Assembly (NCBI GenBank): GCA_944321875.1
Contig: CALUMX010000002.1
Span: 83,651-147,650 of the forward strand
Reading direction: 5' to 3'
Source: an uncultured Muribaculaceae bacterium
GTDB taxonomy: Bacteria; Bacteroidota; Bacteroidia; Bacteroidales; Muribaculaceae
DNA: 64,000 nucleotides
The notes beneath the pieces were generated by a model. That model worked only from the letters and a program-made list of their open reading frames with translations, did not search any database and was not told the origin of the DNA. The position numbers and the translations under genes are program-made. Positions 15,241 through 48,867 of the stretch are shown one piece after another (the stretch's first letter is position 1; each line of letters starts with the position of its first letter).

Positions 15241-15420
15241 TTTATTCAAAAATAGAGAAAGGCGAGCGCAGAGGCAAACGAAAAACGAAGTTTTTAAGTT
15301 TGGCTTTGCCGAGCCGTATCCTATTTTATTCAAAAATAGCGAAAGGCGAGCGCAGAGACAAACGAAAAACGAAGTTTTTGGGTTTGGCTTTGCCGAGCCG
15401 CATCCTATTTTATTCAAAAT
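15241..15420 (-). repeat. Tandem promoter-bearing intergenic repeat, locus 1 (84-bp period)
   Basis: Two nearly identical 84-bp units (15241-15324, 15325-15408) are followed by a 12-nt start of a third. Each unit, read on the minus strand, contains GGCTCGGCAAAGCC, then a 6-bp hairpin AAAAAC-TTC-GTTTTT, then TTTG-N20-TATTTTTG. The exact boxes are CAAA at 15275-15278 with CAAAAATA at 15247-15254, and CAAA at 15359-15362 with CAAAAATA at 15331-15338. Related tandem units occur at 42.10 and 48.74 kb. Translation of the unit gives a spurious open frame. Confidence 0.9.
15247..15278 (-). promoter_or_regulatory. Full-consensus promoter for the 398-aa protein/SIMPL/acetyltransferase/EamA operon
   Basis: On the minus strand this is TTTG, 20 bp, TATTTTTG, the Bacteroidetes -33/-7 consensus. 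It lies inside the repeat unit nearest the gene. A second identical arrangement lies 84 bp upstream at 15331-15362. Confidence 0.75.
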
Positions 15421-15533
15421 TAAGCATTGCTTCTGTAATAATCAATATACACAACCACAAATAGTGCCGGTCGAAAGGGCTGCTCTGAAAATTTTTCGCT
15501 ACTTTTACATCATTGAAAACTTTTATCCGAATT

Positions 15534-16073
15534 ATGAAGAATTTTCACGACCTTTTATTCAACCGTCGCAGCATCCGCAAATACAAAGATGAGGAAATCT
15601 CCGGCGACGATGTGACAACCATATTACAGGCAGGATTGGCAAGCCCGTCCTCCAAGAACCGCCGTCCATGGAATTTCATTGTCGTAGAGGACAAGAAAAC
15701 ATTGGAAGCTCTGAGCAAGTGCAAGGAGTTCGGGGCACGTCCTATTGAGAGTTGTGCACTGGCCATTGTCGTTACGGCCGACCCGTTTGAAAGCGACGTA
15801 TGGGTGGAGGATGCCTCTATCGCCACTTTCGCCATGCAGATGCAAGCCGAGGACCTCGGATTGGGAAGCTGCTGGATTCAGGTGCGTGAGCGGTTTGACC
15901 GCGACGCCAACCTGGCGGAAGACAACGTAAGAGCCATTCTGGGCATTCCCGATGACATCCGTGTTTTGAGCATTTTGACTCTCGGCCATAAGGACGAGGA
16001 GCGCAAGCCGCTGAACGAGGAGGAATGTCTCTGGGAGAAAGTGCATATCGGACATTGGAGGGCACAGGAATGA
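15534..16073 (+). CDS. Nitroreductase-family flavoprotein
   Basis: The ATG at 15534 gives a 179-aa protein; a TTG 21 nt upstream is less likely. It has the nitroreductase (PF00881) layout: FNRRSIRKYKDEEI at the N-terminus for FMN phosphate binding, LASPSSKNRRPWNF (about 35-48), GLGSCWIQ (about 104-111), and a C-terminal LGHKDEERKPL. These are FMN enzymes that reduce nitro groups, quinones or related acceptors with NAD(P)H; the substrate is unknown. It overlaps the next gene by ATGA, opening a nitroreductase, DUF2520, KdsC, Maf cluster. Confidence 0.93.
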   Translation: MKNFHDLLFNRRSIRKYKDEEISGDDVTTILQAGLASPSSKNRRPWNFIVVEDKKTLEALSKCKEFGARPIESCALAIVVTADPFESDVWVEDASIATFAMQMQAEDLGLGSCWIQVRERFDRDANLAEDNVRAILGIPDDIRVLSILTLGHKDEERKPLNEEECLWEKVHIGHWRAQE

Positions 16074-16858
16074 GCCGGCTACGCATCGTAATCATCGGAG
16101 CCGGCAACGTGGCTACCCATCTCGCGCTTGCCCTGCGCAAGAAAGCGGACATCGTGCAGATTTTCGGCCACACACCCGAACGTACCCGCAAACTTGCTGA
16201 AGCGGTCGGAGACGGTGTCAGTTACGAAACCGACATCAACCGACTTGCCGATGCCGACGCCTACATCGTCTCCATTAAGGACGACGCGATAGCTGGCTTC
16301 CTGAACTCCGTACCCGCCCGATGCCGCCGCTCGCTCTGGATGCATACCTCTGGGAGCGTAGGGATTGACGTATTTGAGGGATTCAACGACAACCACGGTA
16401 TCCTCTACCCTCTGCAAACGTTCTCCATCGATGTTGACCTCAACATGGAGGAAGTGCATTTCTTCTGCGAAGGCAATCATACGGATGCCGAAACCGGCAT
16501 ACAGGCTGTAGCCCGGCTGATTTCCGACCACGTTCACCATGCCGACAGTGACATCCGCCGCCAACTGCACATTGCGGCCGTATTTGCCTGCAACTTTGTC
16601 AACCATATGTACACGGCGGCATCCGACATTCTGGAGCGCAACCAACTACCGTTCAGCGCACTGCTTCCTCTCATCAAGGAAACGACAAGAAAGGCAGTAT
16701 CCTACCCTGCCATTACGCCGTATGAGGCTCAAACCGGTCCGGCCGTGCGGGGCGACCGCAACATCATCGGAAAGCACCTGTCAATGCTGGAGGGTACGGA
16801 AAAAGAGATTTATGAAACTGTATCAAACGCTATACTCAAACGACACAATAAAGCATGA
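16070..16858 (+). CDS. DUF2520 Rossmann-fold oxidoreductase-like protein
   Basis: The start is the ATG of the ATGA overlap with the nitroreductase stop. The 262-aa product has an N-terminal Rossmann motif [13 protein letters not shown] (about 6-18), a middle segment typical of the family ([21 protein letters not shown]), and a C-terminal helical DUF2520 domain resembling the dimerisation domain of pyrroline-5-carboxylate reductase-like enzymes. It probably binds NAD(P), but its substrate is unknown. It is translationally coupled to the downstream phosphatase by another ATGA. Confidence 0.9.
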
Positions 16859-17379
16859 GCGGAATAGATTATAATTTGTCACAGATAAAGGCATTCGCCT
16901 TCGACGTCGACGGCGTTCTGTCGTCCTCGACCATCCCACTGCACCCGTCGGGAGAACCGATGCGCATGGTCAACATCAAGGACGGATACGCCATCCAACT
17001 GGCTGTCAAGCTGGGCTATCAGGTAGCCATCATCACAGGAGGAAAAACGGAGGCCGTACGCATCCGTTTTGAAAATCTCGGAGTACAGGACGTCTATATG
17101 GGAGCGGCTGTAAAAATCACAACTTACGAGGAATGGAAAAAGAAACACAACCTGCAGGACAGCGAAATCATGTTCATGGGTGACGATATTCCCGATATGG
17201 AGGTACTCCGGCGTGTAGGACTCCCTGCGGCTCCGGCCGATGCCTGCAGCGACGTGCTGGCTCTCGCCCGCTATGTCACGCCTTGCAAAGGCGGCGACGG
17301 ATGTGCCCGCGACATTATCGAGCAAGTGCTCCGCGCCAAGGGTGACTGGCTGAAGGACCGCCACGCTTTCGGATGGTAG
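16855..17379 (+). CDS. kdsC: 3-deoxy-D-manno-octulosonate-8-phosphate phosphatase, KdsC/YrbI type
   Basis: This 174-aa HAD phosphatase is of the small C0-type without a cap domain, as in KdsC. Motif [10 protein letters not shown] (about 12-20), motif II IITGG (about 59-63), the conserved Lys region, and motif [13 protein letters not shown] (about 104-115) are visible. KdsC removes phosphate from Kdo-8-P in lipid A/LPS core synthesis. A Kdo cytidylyltransferase (kdsB) is found at 51.8 kb, supporting a functioning Kdo route. Some family members act on KDN-9-P instead, so substrate is inferred. Confidence 0.88.
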
Positions 17380-17417
17380 CCGATTTCTTATAGTTAGTCT
17401 TTATTTAATTTCGAAAA

Positions 17418-17999
17418 ATGCTTTCCAATCTATCCAAATATAAAATCGTCCTTGCCAGCGGCTCACCCCGACGCAAGGAACTGCTCGCAGGCCTTGGCCT
17501 GGAGTTCTCCGTTTTCTGCCTGAAAGATATCGACGAATCCTATCCGGCTGACTTAAATGCAGCGGACGTTGCAGGCTACATTTCGGGGAAAAAGGCCGAT
17601 GCCTACCGGCAAATTATCCACGATAACGAACTTTTCATCACGGCCGACACTGTAGTTGTCAGCGGAAACCGTATTCTCGGCAAACCGACCGACCGGCAGA
17701 ACGCCATCGAAATGCTGCAGGCTCTGTCGGGCAAGGAGCATCAGGTCATCACGGGCGTGACACTCGTCAGCGCCGAACGCAGAGCATCGTTCTCCGTCAC
17801 TACCGACGTACGTTTCTGCACGCTCACCGATGAGGAAATCGAATACTACGTCGACAACTACCGTCCATTCGACAAAGCCGGAGCCTATGGCATCCAGGAA
17901 TGGATTGGCTATATCGGAGTGGAAAACATATCGGGCAGCTATTTCAACGTGATGGGCCTTCCCGTACAGCGGTTGTACCGCGAACTCAAGAAATGGTAA
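17418..17999 (+). CDS. Maf-family nucleoside triphosphate pyrophosphatase
   Basis: This 193-aa protein has the Maf signature LASGSPRRKELL near the start and the catalytic TADTVV (about 75) with DKAGAYGIQ (about 153). Maf proteins hydrolyse non-canonical or canonical pyrimidine NTPs (dTTP, UTP) to monophosphates; the subtype is not decided here. It is the last gene of its cluster, 38 nt after kdsC. Its stop codon overlaps the convergent minus-strand gene by 14 bp. Confidence 0.94.
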   Translation: MLSNLSKYKIVLASGSPRRKELLAGLGLEFSVFCLKDIDESYPADLNAADVAGYISGKKADAYRQIIHDNELFITADTVVVSGNRILGKPTDRQNAIEMLQALSGKEHQVITGVTLVSAERRASFSVTTDVRFCTLTDEEIEYYVDNYRPFDKAGAYGIQEWIGYIGVENISGSYFNVMGLPVQRLYRELKKW

Positions 18000-19137
18000 G
18001 CGTTGCCGTATAGAGCGTGTCATCGCCGACGGGTGTCAGCAGAAGGGTTCCTGCCTGCAACCGGCCATCGGCGATGACAGGCTTTTCTTTTTCCGAAAGA
18101 TAGCGTGCGAGGTCGTCTTTTGTCTTATGATAGAACACTTCCATCGTTCCGACCTTTCCGTCTGCCACCACGCTGTCGCCCAAAACCGAAGCCACGACAC
18201 CCATCGTAGTGCGCACATTCATCTCAATACAGGGATTGACTCCTACCGTACCGTCTTCCCGACGGTAAAGGAGCATATCTACCCCTATGTATCCTTCATA
18301 ATCATCCGGCACTATCTCGCACAATGCTTCCCGAAGCTGAGACTGCAGGGTGTCGAAATCGTAACCACCCGATTTCTCGTCCAGATATTCTCTCAGCAAA
18401 CCGGTTGATGCCACCATCGCGTTATCATACGACATTTGGGCATTATTGAAAAACACGGAATAACCGGCAAAACGCACATCACCCCCTGACACACGGAACT
18501 CCATCGCAAAATCCTGCAATCCGTCAAGCATGCGCTCACACATGATACTGCCCTGCTTCTTTATCACGCTCTCAATCCATATTCGGAAAGAAGGCAAACT
18601 GTCAGGTGACACTCGGCACACTCCCCGTCCGCTTCCCGACCAGGGAGCTTTGACTACCGCATCCGAGAATCGCCGTACCGCTGCCTCAACCTCCTCCAGC
18701 AAAAAGCATTCCACCGGGCTTTCCGGCATCAACGGCAAACGCAACCGACGGAAAATGCCGACCGTTTGTCCGCGGTGAGAAAGTTGACGAATAGCCTGTA
18801 ATGCCTTCTCATCCGGTAAATGAGGGACTCCCGCTCTTGCCAGTTCAGCCGCTATGGCAGGACTCCATCCCCACGGCATCACCCTCTCGGGAACAGAAGT
18901 GCGGTTCCACAGACCGACGCGACTCAAATGCGGAAAATCCTGCTTCATCCTCAGGAGAAAACCACGGTTGACATCATTATCGTCCGCATACAAAACAGCA
19001 GGCGACTCACAGACCCACATCGGGAGCATCTGCAAGTCGCTGCGTATCTTTCTGGCCAGCACCGGCGCCGTATAGTTGGCTATGCCGGCTGCCAGTGCAA
19101 GGTCATTTTCCGGATTGAACAAATAAAGGGAAAGCAT
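17986..19137 (-). CDS. ATP-grasp-like protein of unknown substrate
   Basis: The ATG at 19137 avoids overlap with nspC and starts on a natural hydrophobic strand (MLSLYLFNPENDLAL). The 383-aa protein has features of an ATP-grasp carboxylate-amine ligase: VVKAPWSGSGRGVC (lysine plus Gly-rich loop, mid-protein), EDF-like AMEFRV, and PCIEMNVRTTMG near the C-terminus, where the Glu and Asn would bind magnesium. I recognise no characterised homologue. It lies 16 nt behind nspC, the third gene of the pcrA-nspC operon. Confidence 0.75.
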   Translation of the reverse strand: MLSLYLFNPENDLALAAGIANYTAPVLARKIRSDLQMLPMWVCESPAVLYADDNDVNRGFLLRMKQDFPHLSRVGLWNRTSVPERVMPWGWSPAIAAELARAGVPHLPDEKALQAIRQLSHRGQTVGIFRRLRLPLMPESPVECFLLEEVEAAVRRFSDAVVKAPWSGSGRGVCRVSPDSLPSFRIWIESVIKKQGSIMCERMLDGLQDFAMEFRVSGGDVRFAGYSVFFNNAQMSYDNAMVASTGLLREYLDEKSGGYDFDTLQSQLREALCEIVPDDYEGYIGVDMLLYRREDGTVGVNPCIEMNVRTTMGVVASVLGDSVVADGKVGTMEVFYHKTKDDLARYLSEKEKPVIADGRLQAGTLLLTPVGDDTLYTATLTIS

Positions 19138-19153
19138 CCGCAAAATAGGTAAG

Positions 19154-20305
19154 TTAATCCATCCGGCTGCGGTAGTCCTCATAGGTGAACTCGCGTAGCA
19201 GTTCCACTGTTCCGTCCATACGTTTCAAGACAAACGAAGGATGCTGAATTCCGTTGAACATGTGGGTTTTGACAGTCGTGTAGTGATTCATATCCTCAAA
19301 TACGATGGTATCACCCGGCTGCAACGGTTTCTCAAAGCTCCAGTCTCCGATGAAGTCACCGCTCAGACAGGAATTTCCACCAATGCGGTAAGTCGGTTTC
19401 GACGGGTCAACCTCTTTCAACGCCGACTCAATTGCCGGCTTATAGGGCATTTCCAGACAGTCCGGCATGTGGCAGGCAAAAGAAGCGTCAATGATGGCTG
19501 TCTTGATACCTTGATTCTCCACCACGTCGAGCACAGTAGACACAAGCTCACCCGTACGCCATGTGAACGCGCTTCCCGGCTCCATAATCAGCTCCAGGTT
19601 TGGATGACGCTCCTTGAAACTACGCAGCAGTGCAATCAGATGCTCCACGTCGTAACCCTCGCGTGTCATCAGATGTCCGCCGCCCATGTTCAGCCAACGC
19701 ACCTGCCCGAGAAGGTCTCCGAACTTTTCTTCCATCGCATTCAGCACCGTTTCCAAGTCGTAAGAGGTCGACTCACACAAACAATGAAAATGCAGACCTT
19801 CCAGACCCTCCGGTAACCGTCCGTCCAGCACATCAGCCGTCACGCCGAAACGAGAACCGGGCATGCAGGGATTATAGATGTCGGTATCGATAACGGAACT
19901 TTCCGGATTAACACGCAGACCGCAGCTGACGCGCTTCTCAGCCGGATGCGTGGCATTATAGGCATCGACCCGAGGTTTGAATTTCTCATATTGTGCCACG
20001 GAGTTAAAAACAATGTGCGAGCTGCCCTCGATAAACTCATCGATGGTATCCTCCGTGTATACCGGACAGTAGGAATGCACGTCGTTGCCCAAAAATTCCA
20101 AAGACAGACGCATTTCGTTGAGCGAGCTGGCTGTCGACGACGAACAGTACTCGGAAATAATGCCGAACGTTTTCCACAAGGCGTTAGCCTTAAAAGCCAT
20201 GATGATTTTCACGCCGGCACGCTCTGATACGGATGAAATCAGCGACAGATTTCTGCGCAGTTTCTCCTCATGCACAATATAATAAGGGGTTGCTATTTTC
20301 TTCAT
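19154..20305 (-). CDS. nspC: Carboxynorspermidine decarboxylase
   Basis: This 383-aa PLP enzyme of the alanine-racemase fold decarboxylates carboxyspermidine or carboxynorspermidine, the last step of the alternative spermidine route found in many Bacteroidetes. The PLP lysine is in MAFKANALWKTFG (about 35-47). Other active-site segments are MPGSRFGV, HFHCLCEST, LNMGGGHLMT and the C-terminal GNSCLSGDFIGDW with the catalytic Cys. The partner carboxyspermidine dehydrogenase is not adjacent in this window. The start overlaps the helicase stop by ATGA. Confidence 0.95.
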   Translation of the reverse strand: MKKIATPYYIVHEEKLRRNLSLISSVSERAGVKIIMAFKANALWKTFGIISEYCSSSTASSLNEMRLSLEFLGNDVHSYCPVYTEDTIDEFIEGSSHIVFNSVAQYEKFKPRVDAYNATHPAEKRVSCGLRVNPESSVIDTDIYNPCMPGSRFGVTADVLDGRLPEGLEGLHFHCLCESTSYDLETVLNAMEEKFGDLLGQVRWLNMGGGHLMTREGYDVEHLIALLRSFKERHPNLELIMEPGSAFTWRTGELVSTVLDVVENQGIKTAIIDASFACHMPDCLEMPYKPAIESALKEVDPSKPTYRIGGNSCLSGDFIGDWSFEKPLQPGDTIVFEDMNHYTTVKTHMFNGIQHPSFVLKRMDGTVELLREFTYEDYRSRMD

Positions 20306-22626
20306 TGTATGATTGTGAATTTTGCAAATTTTACCAATAACACTTTTATTCCCACATTCTCGAAGTTGACTGTCACCTTCACATCCGGATTACTCTCCAC
20401 CTTCGTAATCTCGCCCACTCCGAAACGGTCGTGACGGATGCGCATCCCGACCTCATAATCGGAATTGACAGGAGCAGAAGCTGAAGACGGACGGTCTGCA
20501 GAAGCCGCCTGTGCCTTTCGCGACGGAGAGGTAGAAAGCGGAGTCAGGCGACGGGGTGCCGCAATCGACCGTTCTTCCAATATCGGACGCTGTTTTCTTT
20601 CGACAAACTCATCAAAGCGGTCTTTTACATAATTCTGACCGCCGGTTGAGCCGGACATAATCAGCAGACTTCGGTCAATATCCTTGATGAAACGGCTTGG
20701 CGAACAGGGACGTGACGCACCGTTCTGGAAACGCGACCGGGCGTAAGTCATTACGCAATTTTCCTTGGCACGCGTAATGGCCACATAGAGCAACCGCCGT
20801 TCCTCCTCTATCTCGCTCATCGAGCCGCTGCTATGCACCGACGGGAACAATTCATCCTCTACTCCGACGATAATCACGTTGCGGAATTCAAGTCCTTTCG
20901 AGGCATGGACAGTCATCAACGTCACTTTCGGCATTCCGTCATCCTCCTCGCTGTCCTGGTCGGTGGCAAGCGATACCTCCGAAAGGAAATCAGCCATCGA
21001 CACTTCACGGCTGCCCTGCTCCATACGGTCATCGACAAATTGCTTCGCCGCACTCAGCAACTCGTTCAGGTTTTCCTGACGGCTGATATTCTCGGGCGTA
21101 TTGTCGGAATACAGAGAGGACACAAGCTTCGAGGTATGATAGATATGGGATGTCAGAGCGAAAGCATCGGCTCCACTTTCACTCATTTCTATATATCCGT
21201 CAATCAGCGACTTGAACCCATTAAGTTTCGCCCGTGTACCGGCATTGACACTCAATCCGTAAATATCAGGCTCACACAGTACGCGCCACATGCTGACACC
21301 TCCGTCAACGGCTGCTTGACGCACTTTCTGCACCGTCTTGTCGCCAATGCCGCGCGCCGGATAATTGATGATACGGCGCAGTGCCTCATCATCGTCGGGA
21401 TTGATGGTCATGCGGAAATAGCCGAGCGCATCCTTGATTTCCTTACGCTGATAGAACGACAGCCCGCCATAAATACGATAAGGTATGTTACGCTTGCGCA
21501 GACTTTCCTCCAGCAGACGCGATTGGGCATTCGTACGGTAGAGAATGGCGAAGTCGGAATAGGCGCCCGATTGAAGCATCTTGATTTCCGAAATCTTATT
21601 GGCCACAATGAAACTTTCCTCAAAATCCGTATAAGCCTCTATGACCGGAATCTTCGCACCGGCAGAATTGGTGGAGAAAATCCGCTTCGGAATCTGCTTT
21701 TTATTCTTCTCTATCAAACTGTTGGCCGCGTTCAGAATGTTCTGCGTCGAACGGTAGTTCTGCTCCAACTTGAACGTCACCAAATCCGGATAGGAATCCT
21801 TCAGATTAAGAATGTTCTGTATGTTTGCGCCACGGAAGGAATAGATACTTTGCGCATCATCGCCCACCACGCACAAGCGCTGAGACTTTTGGCTCAGTTT
21901 CGAAATCACCAGGTGCTGTGCGAAGTTGGTATCCTGATACTCGTCTACCAGTACATACTGGAAATAATCCTGATATTTCTCCAGCACATCCTCGTTGTCA
22001 CGGAACAGAATATTGGTATACAGCAGAATATCATCAAAGTCCATGGCCTCCGAAATGGCGCAGCGATTGAAATAGGTCTCATAGATGTCGGCAAATGCCG
22101 GACGCCGGACGTGCCGGTCACGGTCCATGTATGCCTTGTTCTGACGATAGCTTGCCGGAGTCACTAGGGCATTTTTCAACTGGGAAATGAACGAGGACAC
22201 TGCCGCTACGGCATATTGCTTCTCGTCCAACTCCTTCTCCTTGATAATGGCTTTCAGCAACGACTTCGTGTCGGCCGTATCGTAAATCGTAAAATTCGGA
22301 CGGAAACCAATACGGTCGGCGTTGTAGCGCAAAATGCGGAGGAACAACGAGTGGAACGTACCCATCCAAAGCTGTGAGGCCAGTTCCGGACCGACCAACA
22401 GAGCGATACGCTCACGCATTTCACGGGCAGCCTTGTTGGTAAACGTCAGGGCCAGAATACGCCGGGGGGCATAGCCCTGCGCTATCAGATAGGTTATCTT
22501 ATTGGTCAGCACACGGGTCTTTCCCGACCCTGCGCCGGCAATAACCAGCGAGGGGCCGCCATCGTAGCGCACCGCCTCCAGCTGCTGCTGATTCAAATCT
22601 TGCAGATAAGTTTCTATTTGCTCCAT
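20302..22626 (-). CDS. pcrA: UvrD/PcrA-type superfamily 1 DNA helicase
   Basis: This 774-aa 3'-5' helicase has Walker A GAGSGKTR (31-38), LAFTNKAAREMRERI-type motif Ia, VDEYQDTN (about 228), QNYRST, ARGIGDKT, and the motif V/VI pair TVHASKGLEF and YVAITRAKE. The C-terminus is a Ser/Pro linker and a Tudor-like domain (RHDRFGVGEITKVE), which in PcrA contacts RNA polymerase. It acts in nucleotide excision repair and in clearing replication conflicts. It starts the minus-strand pcrA-nspC-ATP-grasp operon and has a full-consensus promoter. Confidence 0.95.
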   Translation of the reverse strand: MEQIETYLQDLNQQQLEAVRYDGGPSLVIAGAGSGKTRVLTNKITYLIAQGYAPRRILALTFTNKAAREMRERIALLVGPELASQLWMGTFHSLFLRILRYNADRIGFRPNFTIYDTADTKSLLKAIIKEKELDEKQYAVAAVSSFISQLKNALVTPASYRQNKAYMDRDRHVRRPAFADIYETYFNRCAISEAMDFDDILLYTNILFRDNEDVLEKYQDYFQYVLVDEYQDTNFAQHLVISKLSQKSQRLCVVGDDAQSIYSFRGANIQNILNLKDSYPDLVTFKLEQNYRSTQNILNAANSLIEKNKKQIPKRIFSTNSAGAKIPVIEAYTDFEESFIVANKISEIKMLQSGAYSDFAILYRTNAQSRLLEESLRKRNIPYRIYGGLSFYQRKEIKDALGYFRMTINPDDDEALRRIINYPARGIGDKTVQKVRQAAVDGGVSMWRVLCEPDIYGLSVNAGTRAKLNGFKSLIDGYIEMSESGADAFALTSHIYHTSKLVSSLYSDNTPENISRQENLNELLSAAKQFVDDRMEQGSREVSMADFLSEVSLATDQDSEEDDGMPKVTLMTVHASKGLEFRNVIIVGVEDELFPSVHSSGSMSEIEEERRLLYVAITRAKENCVMTYARSRFQNGASRPCSPSRFIKDIDRSLLIMSGSTGGQNYVKDRFDEFVERKQRPILEERSIAAPRRLTPLSTSPSRKAQAASADRPSSASAPVNSDYEVGMRIRHDRFGVGEITKVESNPDVKVTVNFENVGIKVLLVKFAKFTIIQ

Positions 22627-22646
22627 CGTCTGTGTATAATAGGGTG

Positions 22647-22677
22647 CAAAGTTACGATGTTTGGTGGTCTTTTCAAA
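22647..22677 (-). promoter_or_regulatory. Full-consensus promoter for the pcrA-nspC operon
   Basis: On the minus strand this reads TTTG (22674-22677), 19 bp, TAACTTTG (22647-22654). The predicted leader is short, roughly 15 nt. Confidence 0.75.
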
Positions 22678-22710
22678 ACACAGATTTAAAAAACCGCACG
22701 CTCCCCGCCC

Positions 22711-23397: not shown

Positions 23398-23439
23398 TTT
23401 TCGTATTAAACAAGATTATGATACTAAGGTTAATTGCAA

Positions 23440-23563: not shown

Positions 23564-23589
23564 CACGTTGTACGTACAAATCACATTTT

Positions 23590-41075: not shown

Positions 41076-41114
41076 AATTATTACAGGTTGATGATATTGT
41101 ATTTCTTTATAAGA

Positions 41115-41678
41115 TTAATGTTTCTTGACTTGCTTCACCTTATAGTCACAACGCACCTTGCCGGCAGCGATGTTGTTGAGTTTGCCGCGAATCAGCTGCT
41201 TGCGGATAGGCGACACGCGGTCCACATAGAGCGTACCCTCCAAATGGTCATACTCATGCTGGATAATACGAGAGAGGAATCCCTCGAACACCTGCTCATG
41301 CTCCTCAAAATTCTCATCAAGCCAGTTGAGCAGCACCTTTTCATGACGCACTACGTTCTCACTCAGTCCGGGCACGCTCAGGCAACCTTCCGCACGCGAC
41401 ACCTTCGGACCATCCTCGAGCACGTCCAGTTCGGGATTAATCAATGTCAACTTAATACCCTCCAATTCCGGGAACGTATCCTTCAGCACATCGGCATCAA
41501 TGACAATCAGACGAATCGGCAGACCAATCTGCGGAGCTGCCAGTCCGACACCGTCGGAAGCATACATTGTCTCATACATATCGGCTATCAACTTCTTCAA
41601 ATCCGGATAGTCAGGAGTAATCTCTTCAGTCTCCTGCCGCAAGACAGGTTGACCGTATAAATAAACAGGTAATATCAT
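41115..41678 (-). CDS. def: Peptide deformylase
   Basis: This 187-aa metalloenzyme removes the formyl group from nascent N-termini. All three motifs are intact: GVGLAAPQ (43-50), EGCLS (97-101) with the metal Cys, and HEYDH (141-145) with the two His ligands and catalytic Glu. Its start overlaps the ruvX stop by ATGA, so the two are translationally coupled. Confidence 0.97.
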   Translation of the reverse strand: MILPVYLYGQPVLRQETEEITPDYPDLKKLIADMYETMYASDGVGLAAPQIGLPIRLIVIDADVLKDTFPELEGIKLTLINPELDVLEDGPKVSRAEGCLSVPGLSENVVRHEKVLLNWLDENFEEHEQVFEGFLSRIIQHEYDHLEGTLYVDRVSPIRKQLIRGKLNNIAAGKVRCDYKVKQVKKH

Positions 41679-42097
41679 AGTCGTGATTGTAAACTTTGTA
41701 AATAATCATTCAATATAATGGTTGCCGAAATCTCATCGACAATGGCTTTATCGCGCCGCGCCATTTTCTTCATACCGCCATCCAGCATCGCCCGATGGGC
41801 AAGGACCGACGTAAAACGCTCGTCGTACATTTCGACCGGCATATCCGGCATCACCTTACGCAAGCGATTGACAAACGGCTCGATGTATTTCATACTTTCC
41901 GAATATTCGTTATTCATCTGCTTCGGCAGGCCGATAATAATCTTGTCGACCTTCTCCTGCGATGTGTAACGCGTCAGAAAAGCCTCCAATTCGTGAGAAG
42001 CGACCGTCGTAAGACCGTTCGCCACAATTTGCAGCGTATCGGTCACAGCGATGCCCGAACGCTTTCTTCCATAGTCAATTGCAAGTATTCGCCCCAT
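41675..42097 (-). CDS. ruvX: RuvX/YqgF, RNase H-fold nuclease of rRNA maturation or Holliday junctions
   Basis: I use the ATG at 42097 (MGRILAIDYGRKRSG, 140 aa); a TTG 9 nt upstream would put the start inside the promoter -7 box. The protein has the RNase H-like active site with DYG near the N-terminus, IIGLPKQMN (about 58), YDERFTS (about 95) and DEISATIILNDYL (about 122). YqgF acts in 16S rRNA 5'-end processing in E. coli and as a resolvase in some bacteria. The predicted transcription start nearly coincides with the ATG. Confidence 0.93.
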   Translation of the reverse strand: MGRILAIDYGRKRSGIAVTDTLQIVANGLTTVASHELEAFLTRYTSQEKVDKIIIGLPKQMNNEYSESMKYIEPFVNRLRKVMPDMPVEMYDERFTSVLAHRAMLDGGMKKMARRDKAIVDEISATIILNDYLQSLQSRL

Positions 42098-42103
42098 ATT
42101 TTG

Positions 42104-42135
42104 CAAAGATAGTGCAAATCGAGCGCAATGACAAA
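42104..42135 (-). promoter_or_regulatory. Full-consensus promoter of ruvX-def-ettA within repeat
   Basis: Minus-strand TTTG, 20 bp, TATCTTTG (42104-42111). The -7 box ends only 6 nt before the ruvX ATG, predicting a leaderless or almost leaderless mRNA. Confidence 0.7.
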
Positions 42136-42240
42136 TTAAACCGCAGGTTTAAAGTTGGCTTTGCCGAGATGCAGCCTATCTTATCCAAAGTAGTGCAAAT
42201 CGAGCGCAATGACAAATTAAACCGCAGGTTTAAAATTGGC
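42104..42240 (-). repeat. Tandem promoter-bearing intergenic repeat, locus 2 (82-bp period)
   Basis: Two units begin at 42104 and 42186 and are near identical. On the minus strand each has CTCGGCAAAGCC (lost from the second), a hairpin TTAAACC-TGC-GGTTTAA, then TTTG-N20 and a -7 box: TATCTTTG in the first unit (42104-42111), the degenerate TACTTTGG in the second. The hairpin arms differ entirely from those of loci 1 and 3 yet pair perfectly. Adjoining it at 42246-42277 is a plus-strand promoter of the same family. Confidence 0.88.
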
Positions 42241-42245
42241 TTAAG

Positions 42246-42277
42246 TTTGTCTCTGCCCTCGCCTTTCGCTATATTTG
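42246..42277 (+). promoter_or_regulatory. Full-consensus promoter of the acetyltransferase gene, repeat-related
   Basis: TTTG (42246-42249), 20 bp, TATATTTG (42270-42277). The spacer is nearly identical to the spacer of the locus 1 repeat on the opposite strand, showing common origin. Confidence 0.75.
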
Positions 42278-42302
42278 CAATCTATTACAACGAACCGACA
42301 CA

Positions 42303-42977
42303 ATGCAAGAACATCCATTCAAACAAATCGACCTGGCCACATGGTCCAGAAAACCATATTTCGACCAATATTCCAAACAAATGAAATGCACCTACAGCAT
42401 AACGGTCAATCTCGACATAACCGAAGTGATACAATATAAAAGAAACAACGGAACAAAATTATACCCGCTTCTCATTTATGTATTGACCAAAACAGTCAAT
42501 AATCATGAGGAATTCCGAACCGCCATTGACGAGAAAGGCCATATCGGCATTTGGCACATACTTCACCCGTGCTACACCATATTTCACAAAGACAACGAGA
42601 CGTTTTCGGAAGTGTGGACCGAATGGAACGACAACCTGACTGCATTTCTTGACAATTGGGAAAAAGACATGGCGCTATACGGCAACAGCCATGAAATCAA
42701 TCCCAAGCCCTCAACACCCGCCAACGTGTTCCCTATCTCAATATTGCCCTGGACCTCATTCACAGGCTTCAATCTGAACATAACAACGTCCGGCGACGAC
42801 TACCTGTTGCCTATTTTTACATTCGGCAAATATTTCACCCAGGCGGACAGGTTCCTTATTCCATTGTCCATCCAGGTGCACCATGCCGTCTGCGACGGAT
42901 TCCACGTTTCACGGTTTATCAATGAAGCCCAACAAATATGCAACGAACTATTCGCCACCAATAGCACAAACCGTTGA
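42303..42977 (+). CDS. cat: Type A chloramphenicol acetyltransferase
   Basis: This 224-aa protein matches CatA along its length: HPCYTIFH (about 88-95), the Ser-containing ISILPWTSF (144-152), FTFGKYFTQADR (172-183), and the catalytic HHAVCDG (193-199) with His194 as base and Asp198. CatA transfers acetyl from CoA to the 3-hydroxyl of chloramphenicol and forms a trimer. Base composition is a little AT-richer than neighbours. No mobile element flanks it; the promoter comes from the dispersed repeat family. Resistance is predicted but activity cannot be read from sequence. Confidence 0.92.
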   Translation: MQEHPFKQIDLATWSRKPYFDQYSKQMKCTYSITVNLDITEVIQYKRNNGTKLYPLLIYVLTKTVNNHEEFRTAIDEKGHIGIWHILHPCYTIFHKDNETFSEVWTEWNDNLTAFLDNWEKDMALYGNSHEINPKPSTPANVFPISILPWTSFTGFNLNITTSGDDYLLPIFTFGKYFTQADRFLIPLSIQVHHAVCDGFHVSRFINEAQQICNELFATNSTNR

Positions 42978-43045
42978 TTATACAAGCATGAGCGACGGAA
43001 TTATTGAAGAAAGATTTACAATTTGAAAAATTAACCCTGAAAAAC

Positions 43046-43076
43046 TTTGAATATTTAATAATATTTTTTATTTTTG
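43046..43076 (+). promoter_or_regulatory. Full-consensus promoter of the small membrane protein/DUF4190 pair
   Basis: TTTG (43046-43049), 19 bp, TATTTTTG (43069-43076), followed by a leader of about 28 nt. Confidence 0.75.
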
Positions 43077-43110
43077 TTATAAACTATTAACCTTAAAAGC
43101 GGAGGGTGTT

Positions 43111-43263
43111 ATGGAAAAGACAATGAGAAACTTTCGATTTGATGTAATCCAAACTTCAGTGATTCTGTTATGTGCCATCCCGTTCGCCTACTGGATTATC
43201 TGGATGCTCGAATTTATGTGCGAACTGCTTGGCATGACGTTCAGCGAGATAGTCAAATGGTAA
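43111..43263 (+). CDS. Small membrane protein, 50 aa
   Basis: A short frame from ATG to TAA encodes 50 residues with one hydrophobic helix (about 15-32, SVILLCAIPFAYWIIWML), flanked by a basic N-terminus and a C-terminal MTFSEIVKW. Support is unusually good for its size: a full-consensus promoter upstream, and a GGAGGG Shine-Dalgarno-like sequence at 43101-43106, 4 nt from the ATG, rare in this phylum. It precedes a DUF4190 gene by 53 nt. I recognise no family. Confidence 0.7.
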   Translation: MEKTMRNFRFDVIQTSVILLCAIPFAYWIIWMLEFMCELLGMTFSEIVKW

Positions 43264-43316
43264 ATAGTGAAACACTGAACAAACATCATTATCAACCATT
43301 AAAATAAAAAAGAATT

Positions 43317-43565
43317 ATGACTGAAGTTAAACGTAGTAATGGATTAGCTGTAGCCGGCTTTGTGTTGGCATTATTGGGCCTTGTATTCTGCTGGATTCCA
43401 ATTTTGAATTGGATTCTGTGGCTGTTAGGCTTGATATTCTCCATCATCGGAGTATGCAGACCGCCACGCGGACTGGCAATTGCCGGTATCGTCCTGTCAT
43501 CGGTCTCATTAATTGCCATCCTCGTATTTTTCGGGGCACTGTTTGCGGCAGCTTCGATGTATTAG
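43317..43565 (+). CDS. DUF4190 two-helix membrane protein
   Basis: This 82-aa protein has the DUF4190 pattern: NGLAVAGFVLALLGLVFCWIP at the first helix, a G-rich turn (GVCRPPRGLAIAGIVLS), and a second helical region. The function is unknown; members are often fused to or neighbour other membrane proteins. It likely shares a transcript with the preceding 50-aa membrane protein. Confidence 0.88.
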   Translation: MTEVKRSNGLAVAGFVLALLGLVFCWIPILNWILWLLGLIFSIIGVCRPPRGLAIAGIVLSSVSLIAILVFFGALFAAASMY

Positions 43566-43584
43566 CGTCCATTCACTCCAACAT

Positions 43585-43624
43585 AATAAGGGCAGGCTTC
43601 TGAACAATGAAGCCTGCCCTTATT
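43585..43624 (+). terminator. Terminator of the DUF4190 unit
   Basis: A perfect 15-bp stem (43585-43599 with 43610-43624) lies 20 nt past the stop codon; the arms end in TTATT. Confidence 0.85.
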
Positions 43625-43638
43625 CTTTATCATTGAAA

Positions 43639-43670
43639 CAGAAGTCCCGGCCAAAGCCGGGATGCTTCTG
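43639..43670 (-). terminator. Terminator of the tricorn-like protease gene
   Basis: A 7-bp core (43645-43651 with 43656-43662, loop CAAA) is extended by CAGAAG/CTTCTG with a 2-nt bulge, 13 nt past the minus-strand stop. The U-tract is short. Confidence 0.65.
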
Positions 43671-43682
43671 CTACCTTATGGA

Positions 43683-46600
43683 TTACTTCGCATCCAACTC
43701 CTTGAGCAACTCATCGACAGCAGCCTTCAGCTGAGTATCCTCGCCTTCCACTACCGTTTCCGGAGCATTAAGAACCAATACGTCCGGCTCGAGCTGTGAG
43801 TTTTCAAGATAAGTACCCTCTGCCGTACGGTAACCAATCACCGGAATACCGAAGACCAGCGAACGGTCTTGCAGCGTCTCCCAGTTTACACTCGTCATCG
43901 TACCCGGAACCGGAGCACCTACCAACTTACCCATCTTCTTGTGCTTATAGACCCATGGAGTACCATGCGCATTGGAGTAGTTAGCCTCACACTGTACCAT
44001 GATTGACGGCTTGTTCCAACGGCGGCTCGGCATGTCGCAAGCCTCACGGCCACGAACCACCTGTGTCAGGTATTTCTCGCCACTGAAGAGAATTTCAATA
44101 TCCTCATGCAAGCGGCCACCGCCATTGAAGCGTGTGTCAATCACGATACCCTCACACTTGTTGTACTTACCTAAGATATCAGAGTAGATGGTACGGAAGC
44201 TACCGTCATCCATCGATTCAATATGCACATAACCCAAACGGCCGTTTGACCAACGCTCCACGTCAGCAGCACGCTGCTTCACCCAACGTTTGTAGAGCAA
44301 CATTTCGAAACCACCGTTTGACATCGGCTTCACAACCTCGTCCCAACGGTTACCGTCAGCAGGATTGTAGAAAGAAACGAGTGTCTTCTTGCCTGCCAGA
44401 CCCTCGAGCAACGGATAGATATTGCCGTTGCCAATCTTCTGACCATTGATTTTCTCAACAATCACACCGGCTTTTGCCTTTGAGGAAGCGCGATCGAACG
44501 GACCTCCGACAAGCACCTCATCAATGCGCATACCCTCACCCTCATACTTCATATCGTAGAAGAAGCCAAGGTTGGCGGTTGATTCAGCATCAGCAGAAGG
44601 AGTAGCACGGTAACGGCCACCAGTATGCGACACGTTCAGCTCACCAAGCAACTCGCTGAGCAGTTCGGCAAAGTCAAAGTTGTTGTTGATATGAGGCAGG
44701 AACTTGCGGTACGCCTTAGTCATCGCTGCCCAGTCAACTCCGTGCATGTCCTCAACATAGAACTTGCGTTCCTCCTGACGGCAAACATGGTCGAACATAT
44801 ACTCACGTTCCTTTGCCAAGTCCATTCTCATCTCTGCTGAATAACGGATAGGCTCACCCTTGCTGGCCGGCAACGTAAACTTCTGCATGGAAGACGTACC
44901 AAGAACAAACATGTTCTTCCAATCCTTGTCCATTGACAATTGAGCGCCACCAGGGCCAAGTTTTGTCACGCAGTTGATGTTGCCCTCACGGTCGCCCTTC
45001 CACAGTTCGATACCTTCCAGACCGGAAACAAGATAGTAATAAGTCTTTCCCTCTTCGGTCACGACAGCATCCATAATATCGGTCGACATCGGAGACAAAC
45101 GCACGATGCGGTCCTCGATATTGTCGAGCTGCACCTCAATCAACTTCTCCTCAGCCTCTTTCTTCTCATCGGCTTTCTTGTCGTCCTTTTTGCTGTCTTT
45201 CTTCTTATCTTTCTTATCGGCATCTGCCTTTTCAGCGTCTTTCTTCTGCTGTGCCTCCAGCTCCTTGAGCAACTCGTAATCCTCCTCGCTCAGACGGAAC
45301 TTATCGTAGGCATCCTGGTTGACAAACGCCAGCATCACGTCGCTCTGAGAGCCCCATGAAGCATGACTGCGCATACCGTAACGGTCAGTCAGGAAAAGGA
45401 TGGCATTACCGTCAAGCACCCAGCGCGGCTGCATGCTGAAATAGCCGCTACCCGTGATGTTGACCGGCTTAGACTTGCCGTCTGCGCTGACGATAGCAAC
45501 GTCAGAGTACGGGTCGTGACCGTTACCGATAATCTCCAGTGTGAACCATTTTCCGTCAGGTGACCAGTTATAGTTGAAACCCGGCGTAAACCATTGTGAG
45601 CCGTCCGTCACCTCACGCACTTTCTTTGACTTCAAATCGACAACCTTCAGCTTGACGCCACCTTCGATAAACGCCAGTTCCTTGCCGTCAGGCGAGAACT
45701 TAGGAGATGTGCGGTCAACGTCGTTTTTGCTGAAAATCGACTCTTCCTCAATCAGCGTAGCATTCGGAAAGTTCAGGTCGTCCTCACGCTTGATGGTAGC
45801 TTTATAAAGACCCCACACGCCGTCACGCTCAGAAGCATAAACCAGCGTTCTGTTGTCTGTGCCGAACTCCACTTCTGATTCCGACTCAACCGTAGATGTA
45901 ATCTGCTTGGTTGTGCCGTATTCCACTGAAGTTACAAAGACATTGCCTCTGACCGTAAATGCCACCTGCTTGCCATCGGGCGATACGGAAGCGGAAGTTG
46001 CTCCGCTTGTAAACTTCATTTCCTTTGCCAAATCCTCGGAATCGCGCACAAGGTCAATAACCACTTTCTTGCCCTTGGCACCGGCTTTCTGAGTATAGAT
46101 TTCACCGTCGTAAGTATAGCAGAGCGTTCCGTCCTGAGCCACCGACAGGAATCTTACCGGATGCGTCTTGAACGAAGTCAGCGCCTTTGCATCCTGCGGA
46201 GCTGCGAGCGGCATCGAGTAAACGTTCATCGAGCCACCGTTACGCTCACTCAGGAAATAAACGGTTTTTCCATCGGGCGACAACGTCGGATTGCGGTCCT
46301 CTCCCGGACGGTTGGTCAGATTGACGTGCTTGCCCGTAGCCGGAGTATACAACCAAATATCGCGTGTCACTGATGAGGTGTGGTGCTTGCGCCACTCGTC
46401 CTCAAAGCCCTTACGGTCCTGATAAACCATGGCAGAGCCGTCGGCAGCAAACGAAATCATCTCAGCCGGAGTGGCAATGACCTGCTCAATGCGTCCGCCA
46501 CCCACCGGTACCCGGTAAAGTTCGGAAAGCACACTTCCCGCAGGGAATAATGCGCTCTTTGCAGGGTCCTGAATGTGTGCTGAGAAATAAACGTATTTGC

Positions 46601-46952
46601 CATCCGGAGAGAAGGACGACACAATTTCATCAAACGAGTTGAACGTCAGGCGCTCGGCACTGCCTCCGGCCTCGCTCATCACAAAGATGTCATTGTTGCC
46701 GTAACGGTTGCTGGAAAAAGCGATGTATTTTCCATCAGGCGACCATACCGGAGTCGACTCGTAGGAATCCTGCGTAGTCAGCTGCACTGCCTTTCCTCCG
46801 GCAGCTGCCACCTTGTAGATGTCACCCTTGTAGGCAAACGCAATCTGCGTGCCGTCAGGCGAGATTTTTGCATCACGCATCCATAACGGAGTGGCTGCAA
46901 AGCCCGAAACGGCGGTAGCGACACCGATCAGACTCATCAATGTTCTTTTCAT
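43683..46952 (-). CDS. Tricorn-like S41 family peptidase
   Basis: This 1089-aa protein has a signal peptide (GVATAVSGFAATP). Two WD40-like PD40 beta-propeller regions follow, with many SPDGKxVxF repeats across about 25-520. A Lys/Asp/Glu-rich segment (about 565-600) precedes a PDZ-like domain with IVEKINGQKIG (about 870) and the S41 core: NVSHTGGRY with the likely catalytic His, DTRFNGGG, and NYSNAHG with the probable nucleophile Ser at about 993. Archaeal tricorn trims peptides from the proteasome. Bacteroidetes forms are exported and probably degrade periplasmic peptides. It follows an SDR gene by 31 nt. Confidence 0.9.
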   Translation of the reverse strand: MKRTLMSLIGVATAVSGFAATPLWMRDAKISPDGTQIAFAYKGDIYKVAAAGGKAVQLTTQDSYESTPVWSPDGKYIAFSSNRYGNNDIFVMSEAGGSAERLTFNSFDEIVSSFSPDGKYVYFSAHIQDPAKSALFPAGSVLSELYRVPVGGGRIEQVIATPAEMISFAADGSAMVYQDRKGFEDEWRKHHTSSVTRDIWLYTPATGKHVNLTNRPGEDRNPTLSPDGKTVYFLSERNGGSMNVYSMPLAAPQDAKALTSFKTHPVRFLSVAQDGTLCYTYDGEIYTQKAGAKGKKVVIDLVRDSEDLAKEMKFTSGATSASVSPDGKQVAFTVRGNVFVTSVEYGTTKQITSTVESESEVEFGTDNRTLVYASERDGVWGLYKATIKREDDLNFPNATLIEEESIFSKNDVDRTSPKFSPDGKELAFIEGGVKLKVVDLKSKKVREVTDGSQWFTPGFNYNWSPDGKWFTLEIIGNGHDPYSDVAIVSADGKSKPVNITGSGYFSMQPRWVLDGNAILFLTDRYGMRSHASWGSQSDVMLAFVNQDAYDKFRLSEEDYELLKELEAQQKKDAEKADADKKDKKKDSKKDDKKADEKKEAEEKLIEVQLDNIEDRIVRLSPMSTDIMDAVVTEEGKTYYYLVSGLEGIELWKGDREGNINCVTKLGPGGAQLSMDKDWKNMFVLGTSSMQKFTLPASKGEPIRYSAEMRMDLAKEREYMFDHVCRQEERKFYVEDMHGVDWAAMTKAYRKFLPHINNNFDFAELLSELLGELNVSHTGGRYRATPSADAESTANLGFFYDMKYEGEGMRIDEVLVGGPFDRASSKAKAGVIVEKINGQKIGNGNIYPLLEGLAGKKTLVSFYNPADGNRWDEVVKPMSNGGFEMLLYKRWVKQRAADVERWSNGRLGYVHIESMDDGSFRTIYSDILGKYNKCEGIVIDTRFNGGGRLHEDIEILFSGEKYLTQVVRGREACDMPSRRWNKPSIMVQCEANYSNAHGTPWVYKHKKMGKLVGAPVPGTMTSVNWETLQDRSLVFGIPVIGYRTAEGTYLENSQLEPDVLVLNAPETVVEGEDTQLKAAVDELLKELDAK

Positions 46953-46983
46953 AAGATTTCTTTTAGTAGTTTTGGTTTTATAA

Positions 46984-47712
46984 TTAGTTTTTCACTTTCA
47001 TTCTTTCCCATATACAGCGGGGAATCATCCGCCAGAGAGCGACCAGCACCGCATACCTCCAGTCGACTACGACAACCCGCCTGCGCCTCATTACCGCACG
47101 CACGATAATCCGGGCCACATAGTCAGGCTTCATGAGCATCGGGAACTTTCCCGACTTCAGCAAATCTGTATCAACAAATCCCGGTCGTATGTCCGTAAAA
47201 CGCACACGGTCGCCGTTCATGGCCGACATCTGAGCCAGACACTGGATGTAGATATTCTGATAGCGTTTCGTCGCCGAATAGGATGCTGCGATTCCCAAGC
47301 CCTTCGTGCCGGCAATCGACGTAACGGCAGCGATGTGTCCGCCGCCTTTCCCTTTAAAATAGCGGTAGGCTGCCGTAATCATTCGCGTAAAACCGACAGC
47401 GTTGGTCTCTACCGTACGTAATTCTACCGACGGGTCCAGCTCCGGATTCTGACTGCCGATTCCCGAGCAGAGGAATATCAGGTCAACGCCGCCCATCCGG
47501 TCAATGAGCGACAACAGCCGCTCCGGGGCATCCTCGCGGGTAACATCGATTTCCTGTGTAAAAACCCGAGAGCCACATTCCCTGGCAAAGGCATCAAGCC
47601 GCTCGGTGCGGCGGCCGGCCACCCCCAGCGTAATGCCCTTCTGCCACATGGCACGGGCCACCTCAAGTCCAATTCCTGAAGTTGCTCCCACAATAACGGC
47701 TTGTCTTATCAT
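46984..47712 (-). CDS. Short-chain dehydrogenase/reductase
   Basis: I use the ATG at 47712; a GTG two codons upstream is possible. The 242-aa enzyme has the SDR cofactor motif VGATSGIG, CSGIG, and the catalytic Ser (VTSIAG) with YSATK containing the Tyr-x-x-x-Lys pair. A C-terminal hydrophobic stretch (AVLVALWRMIPRCIW) may anchor it to the membrane. The substrate is unknown. It may be co-transcribed with the tricorn-like gene. Confidence 0.92.
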   Translation of the reverse strand: MIRQAVIVGATSGIGLEVARAMWQKGITLGVAGRRTERLDAFARECGSRVFTQEIDVTREDAPERLLSLIDRMGGVDLIFLCSGIGSQNPELDPSVELRTVETNAVGFTRMITAAYRYFKGKGGGHIAAVTSIAGTKGLGIAASYSATKRYQNIYIQCLAQMSAMNGDRVRFTDIRPGFVDTDLLKSGKFPMLMKPDYVARIIVRAVMRRRRVVVVDWRYAVLVALWRMIPRCIWERMKVKN

Positions 47713-47947
47713 CGTCACATGCTTTAATGGTAATCTATATTCTTATTTACAATAAAGTTACAACATTATTATTTGCCCACATTCCCCGCCCCTTAAAAGT
47801 TAATATTTTTTAACCAAGCATCAAGCGCCAATGCGTATTGCCCGACTCTGGCTCCGTTGCCCTCCAAACCCCGCCGGATGTCCGATATATTATAGGTTTT
47901 TAACCGTTTTTTTAACCCCTTTATTTTTAAGTTAAATTTCAAAACAC

Positions 47948-47955
47948 TATCTTTG
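47948..47955 (+). promoter_or_regulatory. -7 element of the Crp/Fnr regulator gene
   Basis: TATCTTTG matches TAnnTTTG, 24 nt before the ATG; a T-run (TTTT) occupies the -33 position. The rest of the 267-bp spacer from the SDR start shows T-rich runs but no other recognised feature. Confidence 0.6.
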
Positions 47956-47979
47956 TTTTTAAACTAAAAACGCGAGAAT

Positions 47980-48666
47980 ATGGACAGCATGTACGAAATA
48001 CTTATGAATTTACCCCTCTTCCAGGGAGTAAGCCATGCGAAGATTTCAGAACTAATCGAGAAAATCCGATTCAACTTTCTGAAATACTTAAACAACGAGC
48101 GTTTCATAGCATGCAATGAAAGCTGCCAGCAGTTGAAATTCCTTATCTCTGGAAAAGCCCGGATTGAGATATTCAACAACAACAAGAAAATACGTCTGTT
48201 TGAGACGATTTCCGCCCCCAACGTAATCGGAGCGGAATATCTCTTTGGACGGACGACAGCCTACCCCTACAACGTCTACGCCGCGCCCGATGCCGGTATT
48301 TTGCAGATTGAGAAGACCGACTATCTGAAAATCATCAAGTCGGACTCCATCTTCCTTTTCAATATGCTCAATTACCTGTCGCGCAACTCGCAGACGCCGA
48401 TGGAGGCCGTACTTTCATTGACATCAGGAAGCATCGCCGAACGTCTGGCTTTCTGGATTACGTCGCTTACCCACAAAGGCTCGACCGACGTGACCGTCAC
48501 TTGCAAGCAGAAAGACATGTACACAATGCTCGGCATCCAGCGTTCTTCCTACATGAACACGCTCAACGAACTGAAAGAAGCAGGATATCTCGACTTTACC
48601 CAGAACGAGATTCTCGTCACCAACCGTGACCGCCTGTTTGAACTGATGTCAAACAGCGAGAGCTAA
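47980..48666 (+). CDS. Crp/Fnr-family transcriptional regulator
   Basis: This 228-aa protein has an N-terminal cyclic-nucleotide-binding-like beta-roll (about 10-130, with LISGKARIEIF and IGAEYLFGR). The C-terminal winged helix (about 150-225) has KQKDMYTMLGIQRSSYMNTL as the recognition region. There is no FNR cysteine cluster, so oxygen sensing by an iron-sulfur centre is unlikely. The typical Arg/Ser of the cAMP pocket is not evident, so the ligand is unknown. It is monocistronic, ended by a strong terminator. Confidence 0.92.
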   Translation: MDSMYEILMNLPLFQGVSHAKISELIEKIRFNFLKYLNNERFIACNESCQQLKFLISGKARIEIFNNNKKIRLFETISAPNVIGAEYLFGRTTAYPYNVYAAPDAGILQIEKTDYLKIIKSDSIFLFNMLNYLSRNSQTPMEAVLSLTSGSIAERLAFWITSLTHKGSTDVTVTCKQKDMYTMLGIQRSSYMNTLNELKEAGYLDFTQNEILVTNRDRLFELMSNSES

Positions 48667-48688
48667 AACAACAGACACTACTCATAAC

Positions 48689-48727
48689 AAAAGACTGCCG
48701 GCGGTTGGCTTCTGCCGGCAGTCTTTT
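48689..48727 (+). terminator. Terminator of the Crp/Fnr gene
   Basis: A perfect 14-bp stem (48689-48702 with 48714-48727) with an 11-nt loop lies just before the locus 3 repeat. Confidence 0.88.
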
Positions 48728-48734
48728 GCATATT

Positions 48735-48867
48735 GAAAAACCCCCGTTTTCGTTTGTCTATTCGCTCGCCTTGCACTATCTTTGAAGAAGATAGGCGGCG
48801 GCTCGGAAAAACCAAACCTGAAAACCCCGTTTTCGTTTGTCTATTCGCTCGCCTTGCACTATCTTTG
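48735..48867 (+). repeat. Tandem promoter-bearing intergenic repeat, locus 3 (83-bp period)
   Basis: Two plus-strand promoter units are spaced 83 bp apart, each with TTTG-N20-TATCTTTG: 48753-48756 with 48777-48784, and 48836-48839 with 48860-48867. The second is preceded by GGCTCGGAAAAACC and a hairpin GAAAAC-CCC-GTTTTC. The first has the related arms AAAAC/GTTTT around a C-run. The spacer is identical in both copies. Order and spacing of parts are those of loci 1 and 2. Confidence 0.9.
48836..48867 (+). promoter_or_regulatory. Full-consensus promoter of the glycosyltransferase/nadE/kdsB/M16 operon
   Basis: TTTG, 20 bp, TATCTTTG, 25 nt before the ATG at 48893. A second copy lies 83 bp upstream. 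Confidence 0.75.

Follow-up and report, generated by a model that had tools for sequence, protein, structure and literature searches.

Dispersed imperfect palindromes with a predicted housekeeping promoter as one arm in an uncultured Muribaculaceae bacterium

Repeated units at three loci and in the genome

The window, a stretch of 64,000 nucleotides of contig CALUMX010000002.1 (assembly GCA_944321875.1) from an uncultured Muribaculaceae bacterium, contains three intergenic loci with repeated units, which an earlier note had described from the letters alone; all three are present in the sequence. The neighbouring genes were assigned by Pfam to DUF3843 (locus 1), RuvX and CAT (locus 2) and Glycos_transf_2 (locus 3). 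The complete unit is an imperfect palindrome of about 80 bp, in which the right arm is an entire predicted promoter (from -33 to -7) and the left arm mirrors the right. The housekeeping promoter of Bacteroidetes (sigma-ABfr) has TTTG near -33 and TAnnTTTG at -7 (PMC7366714). The units carry both boxes at these predicted places and, unlike this promoter, also conserve the 20-bp spacer, which is mirrored by the upstream arm. The features at the three loci are as follows, where the foot is the outer part of the left arm.

15247..15327, minus strand: complete palindromic unit, gene-proximal copy of locus 1; its -7 box lies 17 nt before the start codon of the DUF3843 gene (14033-15229)
15331..15411, minus strand: complete palindromic unit, distal copy of locus 1; foot AAAATAGG at 15404-15411, -7 box TATTTTTG at 15331-15338
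15415..15422, minus strand: -7-like box TAATTTTG, immediately beyond the foot of the locus 1 distal unit; its spacer is unlike a unit (8/14 mismatches)
42104..42182, minus strand: complete palindromic unit, gene-proximal copy of locus 2; -7 box TATCTTTG at 42104-42111, 6 nt before the ruvX start codon
42185..42240, minus strand: incomplete distal copy of locus 2, consisting of the promoter arm and the inner hairpin; its -7 box has decayed to TACTTTGG
42246..42277, plus strand: promoter core of the same family, on the opposite strand at locus 2, facing the divergent gene 42303-42977
48735..48784, plus strand: incomplete distal copy of locus 3, consisting of the inner hairpin and the promoter arm; a terminator-like hairpin immediately precedes it
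48788..48867, plus strand: complete palindromic unit, gene-proximal copy of locus 3; -7 box TATCTTTG at 48860-48867, 25 nt before the glycosyltransferase start codon

The hairpin arms reported to differ between loci and still to pair (AAAAAC/GTTTTT, TTAAACC/GGTTTAA and GAAAAC/GTTTTC) were all recovered. The periods of 84 and 83 agree with the core-to-core distances, but the value for locus 2 is 81 rather than 82. The layout TTTG-N20-TAnnTTTG, taken to be constant, is present, but at locus 2 the distal unit has TACTTTGG at its end instead. Where six like units had been counted, four are complete: at loci 2 and 3, neither the outer left arm nor the GGCTCGG-like motif is present in the distal copy. 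The short hairpin with a 3-nt loop exists, but is merely the tip of the palindrome, and across arrays its loop has 3 or 4 nt. A gene of the chloramphenicol acetyltransferase family (PF00302; within 42246-42977) stands beside the ruvX array with a unit-type core of its own, core and array being arranged back to back.

The source genome (2,701,096 bases in 45 contigs, 99.84% complete) is called G000 in all genome comparisons. A search of this 2.70-Mb genome with the core pattern TTTG-N4-T-N-CGCTCG-N2-TT-N3-CTAT-N-TTTG, allowing up to three mismatches, gave 145 matches, while the pattern read backwards gave 0; therefore the core is not a product of chance, and further copies, as the earlier note supposed, do exist elsewhere in the genome. 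The arrays studied are those around the listed core matches plus one further match set, which is part of all arrays, and the fetched stretches contain 196 arrays in ten genomes. Because the core pattern follows the sequence dialect of G000, other dialects are undercounted and the counts given for them are too low.

Folding of 133 units of G000 revealed that the left arm, made up of the foot AANNTAGG followed by a GGCTCGGCAAAGCC-like stretch, pairs with the promoter arm (TTTG, spacer and -7 box) through up to 30 arm-to-arm pairs. The left foot is visible by a simple pattern in 66 of these 133 units, and the left arm is missing from many first copies. The foot AANATAGG, which forms the end of the unit, pairs with the -7 end of its own unit. 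The array period ranges from 74 to 90. To the right, nothing past the last G of the -7 box is conserved except a weak CA, and to the left conservation stops beyond a TATCTTT-like box. When the five stretches used for the fold test (L026 left out as mis-registered) were compared with shuffled sequences as DNA, the units of locus 2 (z = -2.5) and locus 3 (z = -3.0) were better folded; the locus 1 stretch, given without its foot, was no better than shuffles (z = -0.6).

Two G000 contigs (42 and 43; stretches L054 and L055) both end within units sharing one core, so arrays of more than three copies may escape assembly. At other contig ends of G000, the feet adjoin sequence common to contig ends (one common end in L042, L050 and L069, another in L062 and L073); these sequences are probably ends of insertion sequences that landed in or beside units and broke the assembly. 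In G001, internal junctions at L165, L180, L183 and L267 have a longer GC-rich linker (TTTCGCTTCGCGCAAGATAGG and the like) in place of TTTGNATAAGATAGG.

Pairing of the two arms

The two arms were found to change together. Dialects shift on both arms jointly, with TTTTTGATTGC opposite GCAATCAAAAA, CTATATT opposite AATATAG and CTAACTT opposite AAGTTAG. We took the last unit of each array of at least two copies (101 arrays, ten genomes) and permuted left arms within genomes, the -7 box being excluded. Cognate arms scored 14.04 compared with 11.89 (sd 0.21) for swapped arms (z = 10.5), and 0 of 1000 permutations reached the cognate score. An alignment was made of 100 of these units from nine genomes, one unit being dropped for its missing foot, and pairs were taken from RNAalifold. 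Of the cells in its 15 consensus pairs, 1426/1498 (95%) are Watson-Crick, and several of these pairs show three or four pair types, with many compensatory changes. These data support the suggestion that selection acts on pairing rather than on sequence, and they do so along the full length of the unit. A shared regulator that binds one sequence-specific operator is unlikely, since the paired positions vary yet stay mirrored.

Selection at the RNA level is expected to tolerate G.U above A.C. The remaining cells of the alignment include 14 G.U and 23 A.C (P-value = 0.19 for the difference). The inner stem, detected in 168 of 193 arrays (3-nt loops in 106 arrays, 4-nt loops in 62), has 956/982 Watson-Crick cells with 3 G.T and 4 A.C, the Watson-Crick percentage being inflated because three pairs were needed to detect the stem. 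A cruder count over 133 of 319 units, chosen for long pairing, gave G.T 88 and A.C 45; it was not relied on, because a near-fixed unpaired G/T position (87 of 100 units) probably feeds it. Because G.U does not exceed A.C, the covarying arms seem to be maintained as DNA, not as RNA, and would then provide a clean case in which a covarying intergenic hairpin is assigned to DNA by its G.U and A.C counts. An RNA hairpin in the 5′ leader, a stabiliser or attenuator within a unit transcribed from a -7 box outside the foot, is very improbable on these counts. A -7-like box does often lie just outside the foot, which would place some units at the transcript start; many first units, however, have no upstream box, and no Rfam family was matched at gathering score within the 64-kb window.

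Some positions of the stem are almost constantly unpaired. Among the 100 aligned units, T32.C88 is found in 98, C33.T87 in 94, C28.T92 in 98 and C95 in 100, and there is a conserved bulge with a free base at column 85. The TC/TC mismatch, C28.T92 and the bulge recur in units of other families. Complementarity might be upheld by mutation itself, through template switching or arm-to-arm conversion, giving pairing without function; units of one array are often nearly identical, their arms change jointly, and no excess of G.U is needed. Such a process should erase mismatches, yet these are near-invariant and recurrent, so we consider it an improbable source of the pairing, if less so than the RNA leader.

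Position, turnover and distribution

Among the 196 arrays, 187 precede an open reading frame (ORF) of at least 60 aa that starts within 250 nt, at a median of 24 nt after the -7 box, ORF starts being set mechanically from the longest ORF. G000 has 81 arrays, 77 with such an ORF and 65 within 60 nt of it; of the other four, one is a three-unit array (L033 4889-5176) lying 13 nt before a tRNA-Arg (CCT) gene, and at least two are at contig ends. The genes behind the G000 arrays are unrelated to each other and include ones that we take, by recognition from sequence, to be dnaX, recR, argS, purB, uvrC, dnaB and pyrB.

TAnnTTTG is intact in 185 of 193 last units; the TTTG near -33 is built into the core pattern. 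In arrays of at least two copies it is intact in 95/101 last units compared with 49/126 internal units, and when a good spacer is also demanded the values are 88/93 and 45/117. Because only the gene-proximal -7 box is reliably intact, most arrays do not appear to be the working tandem promoters suggested by the earlier note, and look like one predicted working promoter plus palindromes.

Near-identical units occur at unrelated genes: the recR and argS units are identical at 84/86 bases, and 81 bases agree in each of two other pairs. Only 2/47 array genes of three congeners are orthologous to G000 array genes, the 49 congener arrays fetched being part of the total of those genomes. These values, together with the 145 core matches, agree with the dispersal proposed before. 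Fifteen orthologous upstream regions were also inspected (recR, purB, dnaX and pyrB in three congeners each, plus G026 for the first three; the recR region of G001 appears to be coding and the pyrB region of G003 has only 127 bases). The best core match in gene direction has at least 7/21 mismatches in 14 of the 15. The distance from the end of TAnnTTTG to the gene start is 4 nt at recR in two congeners (5 in G000), 21-24 nt at purB in three congeners (27 in G000) and 19-26 nt at dnaX in three congeners (24 in G000); at pyrB the boxes disagree. By eye, a unit in reverse orientation was seen at recR in G002.

At least one core match was found in 78 of 295 genomes of the order and at least 10 in 13 of them, in eight families. 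Core matches vary among genomes within one genus (41, 1, 2 and 1 in one case, 39 and 0 in another, 35, 23, 22 and 4 in a third), and a genome of one contig, G288, has 71. Direct reading of the sequences showed palindromic units in genomes from five more family groups and in one Phocaeicola massiliensis record. The glycosyltransferase of locus 3 has its best named relative, at 62% identity, in a Muribaculaceae metagenome-assembled genome; none of 80 named loci of glycosyltransferase relatives, mostly from unrelated hosts, has the core at up to three mismatches. The exact 24-base core has 0 matches in IMG/VR viral contigs. Of the plasmid records, one (Phocaeicola massiliensis) matches the locus 1 unit and none matches the locus 3 unit. 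Nine unannotated fecal 'Bacteriophage sp.' records, including MT836408, MT837279, MT839645 and MT836672, match the unit and may be bacterial fragments.

The units could be a fixed cis-regulatory DNA structure, such as a cruciform that depends on supercoiling and conceals or uncovers the promoter; they would then be immobile and copied by occasional recombination. The promoter boxes inside the arm, the median of about 25 nt before genes and the pairing at the DNA level agree with this. But the 2/47 shared congener genes, the near-identical units at unrelated genes and the range from 0 to dozens of copies within a genus need frequent spread, and cruciform formation has no need of fixed mismatches; we regard it as a rather unlikely account, though the strongest of the rivals.

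A proposed mobile hairpin beside -7 boxes, and known systems

The sequence outside the units was compared in 56 first units with a clear foot. T[A/T]nnTTT lies directly outside the foot in 23 (3.1% expected at random) and TTG-N15-20-TAnnTTT in 9 (0.8% at random). The two variable bases of the flanking box equal those of the unit's own -7 box in 17 of 22 cases with a clear box, one of which (L069) has a mis-registered foot (permutation mean 9.6, P-value = 5e-5), and 16 of these 22 flanking promoters are unlike a unit. These data fit landing beside a -7 box and repetition of that box. The flanking box and the own -7 box differ at 42/123 internal junctions; 22 of these have a foot closer to its own -7, 6 have one closer to the upstream box and 14 are ties, which argues that the unit folds on itself and against a hairpin between neighbouring units as the conserved structure.

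Our best reading of the sequences is a non-autonomous mobile palindrome, similar to repetitive extragenic palindromes (REP) and miniature inverted-repeat transposable elements (MITE), with a complete predicted promoter in one arm. We give a probability of roughly 0.58 to the proposal that these palindromes of about 80 bp spread as folded single-stranded DNA hairpins beside the -7 boxes of unrelated genes. The features that speak for it can be read directly: copy number, the palindromic form of the whole unit, covariation of Watson-Crick pairs with no surplus of G.U, mismatches and a bulge that are fixed, the place just ahead of genes, differing congener genes and the flanking boxes of 23/56 first units. 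In the proposed mechanism, an enzyme that recognises the DNA hairpin would have it copied next to an existing -7 box. The foot AANNTAG pairs with CTANNTT, which is both the unit's own right end and a general -7 box, and may thereby help to choose the -7 box, like the guides of IS200/IS605. The gene-proximal promoter arm would then drive the adjoining gene, and tandem copies would arise from repeated landing at, or duplication of, one box, after which internal -7 boxes would decay.

Several results weigh against this proposal. Y1_Tnp (PF01797) has 0 matches in G000, and no mobilising enzyme was found. No -7-like box lies outside the foot in 33/56 first units. Among 108 first copies under a loose filter, 37 have a foot that fits its own -7 better and 28 one that fits the upstream box better, which is not decisive and leaves target pairing weak for first copies. 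The dnaX upstream region of G002 has a core with 5/21 mismatches and may hold a distant relative at the same gene. Exact empty sites were sought in congener intergenic DNA and none was seen, because this DNA is too diverged; the disappearance of old units, or promoters turning over with no transposition, could also explain the change of positions.

A more specific form of the idea, which we put forward tentatively and hold to be doubtful, is a promoter-homing transposable element in at least eight Bacteroidales families: its foot would pair with -7 boxes, its promoter arm would take the old -7 position with the distance to the gene unchanged, and its enzyme would not be of the Y1 type. If mobility is correct, housekeeping promoters in these bacteria would be exchanged by a small mobile DNA hairpin whose -7 box keeps its distance to the gene, which would explain one promoter sequence ahead of dozens of unrelated genes. 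It would also point to a further enzyme, and a comparison of high-copy with low-copy congeners could reveal it.

Dispersed palindromes and promoter-bearing MITEs are already known. REP and REPIN sequences with the transposase TnpA-REP (RAYT, REP-associated tyrosine transposase) are likewise imperfect palindromes without coding sequence, dispersed, able to form folded single-stranded DNA and marked by conserved stem mismatches (PMC8266576, PMC8049555), and a conserved stem mismatch is required for processing of the Escherichia coli REP by its own single-strand transposase (PMC8266576). The units too are dispersed imperfect palindromes with a conserved stem mismatch and bulge. If the units were simply a REP family mobilised by a Y1 transposase, the logic would be the same (PMC8266576), but Y1_Tnp is missing from G000 and was not found in 15 of 21 genomes with at least 10 core matches, including the one-contig genome with 71; among genomes with fewer core matches it is present in 35/51. 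We therefore disfavour Y1/RAYT as the mover and see scarcely any chance for this explanation. The units differ further in having about 80 bp, with a whole promoter as one arm, and in lying at promoter positions, the Y1 transposase being mostly absent; GTAG stands 5′ of the REP palindrome (PMC8266576), while NNAT stands before the foot here in the consensus of the 56 first units.

In IS200/IS605 elements, a short sequence beside the hairpin foot pairs with the cleavage site and target, and the target choice of IS608 can be altered by changing that pairing (PMC5934647, PMC8266576). A similar foot-guided pairing with the target may apply to the units, which differ in having no coding part and in a genome without a Y1 gene. 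The units are short, non-coding and multicopy with terminal inverted repeats, like MITEs. BrickBuilt and other MITEs of Porphyromonas gingivalis are of the same phylum, intergenic, in tandem copies and with promoter activity; BrickBuilt has 23-nt repeats, IS5-like ends of about 12 nt (GAGACCTT-type) and 19 copies (PMC4596501). It differs from the units, where the unit itself is the palindrome, the period is 74-90 and the ends are AANATAGG.

Putative mobile promoters are near-identical promoter sequences ahead of unrelated genes; in the present case, by contrast, the arrays are tandem and the promoter forms one of the two arms of a covarying DNA palindrome. Integron attC core boxes read RYYYAAC/GTTRRRY, unlike the foot here, which reads AANATAGG / CTATNTT. 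In the literature covered, with subscription journals mostly outside it, we recognised no paper describing a palindrome that has a whole promoter as its arm, pairs at the DNA level, shows a separate dialect in every genome and lies at promoter positions, and a letter search for three core sequences gave 0 papers.

Two further observations concern the surroundings of arrays. A second dispersed repeat, about GGGGGTACGCCCCTACAAGCGGGGAA, lies upstream of the arrays in L010, L018, L025, L033, L043 and L046. In L045 and L285 (from G000 and G001), a short leader with a terminator-like hairpin lies between the promoter and pyrB, and this hairpin is perhaps an attenuator.

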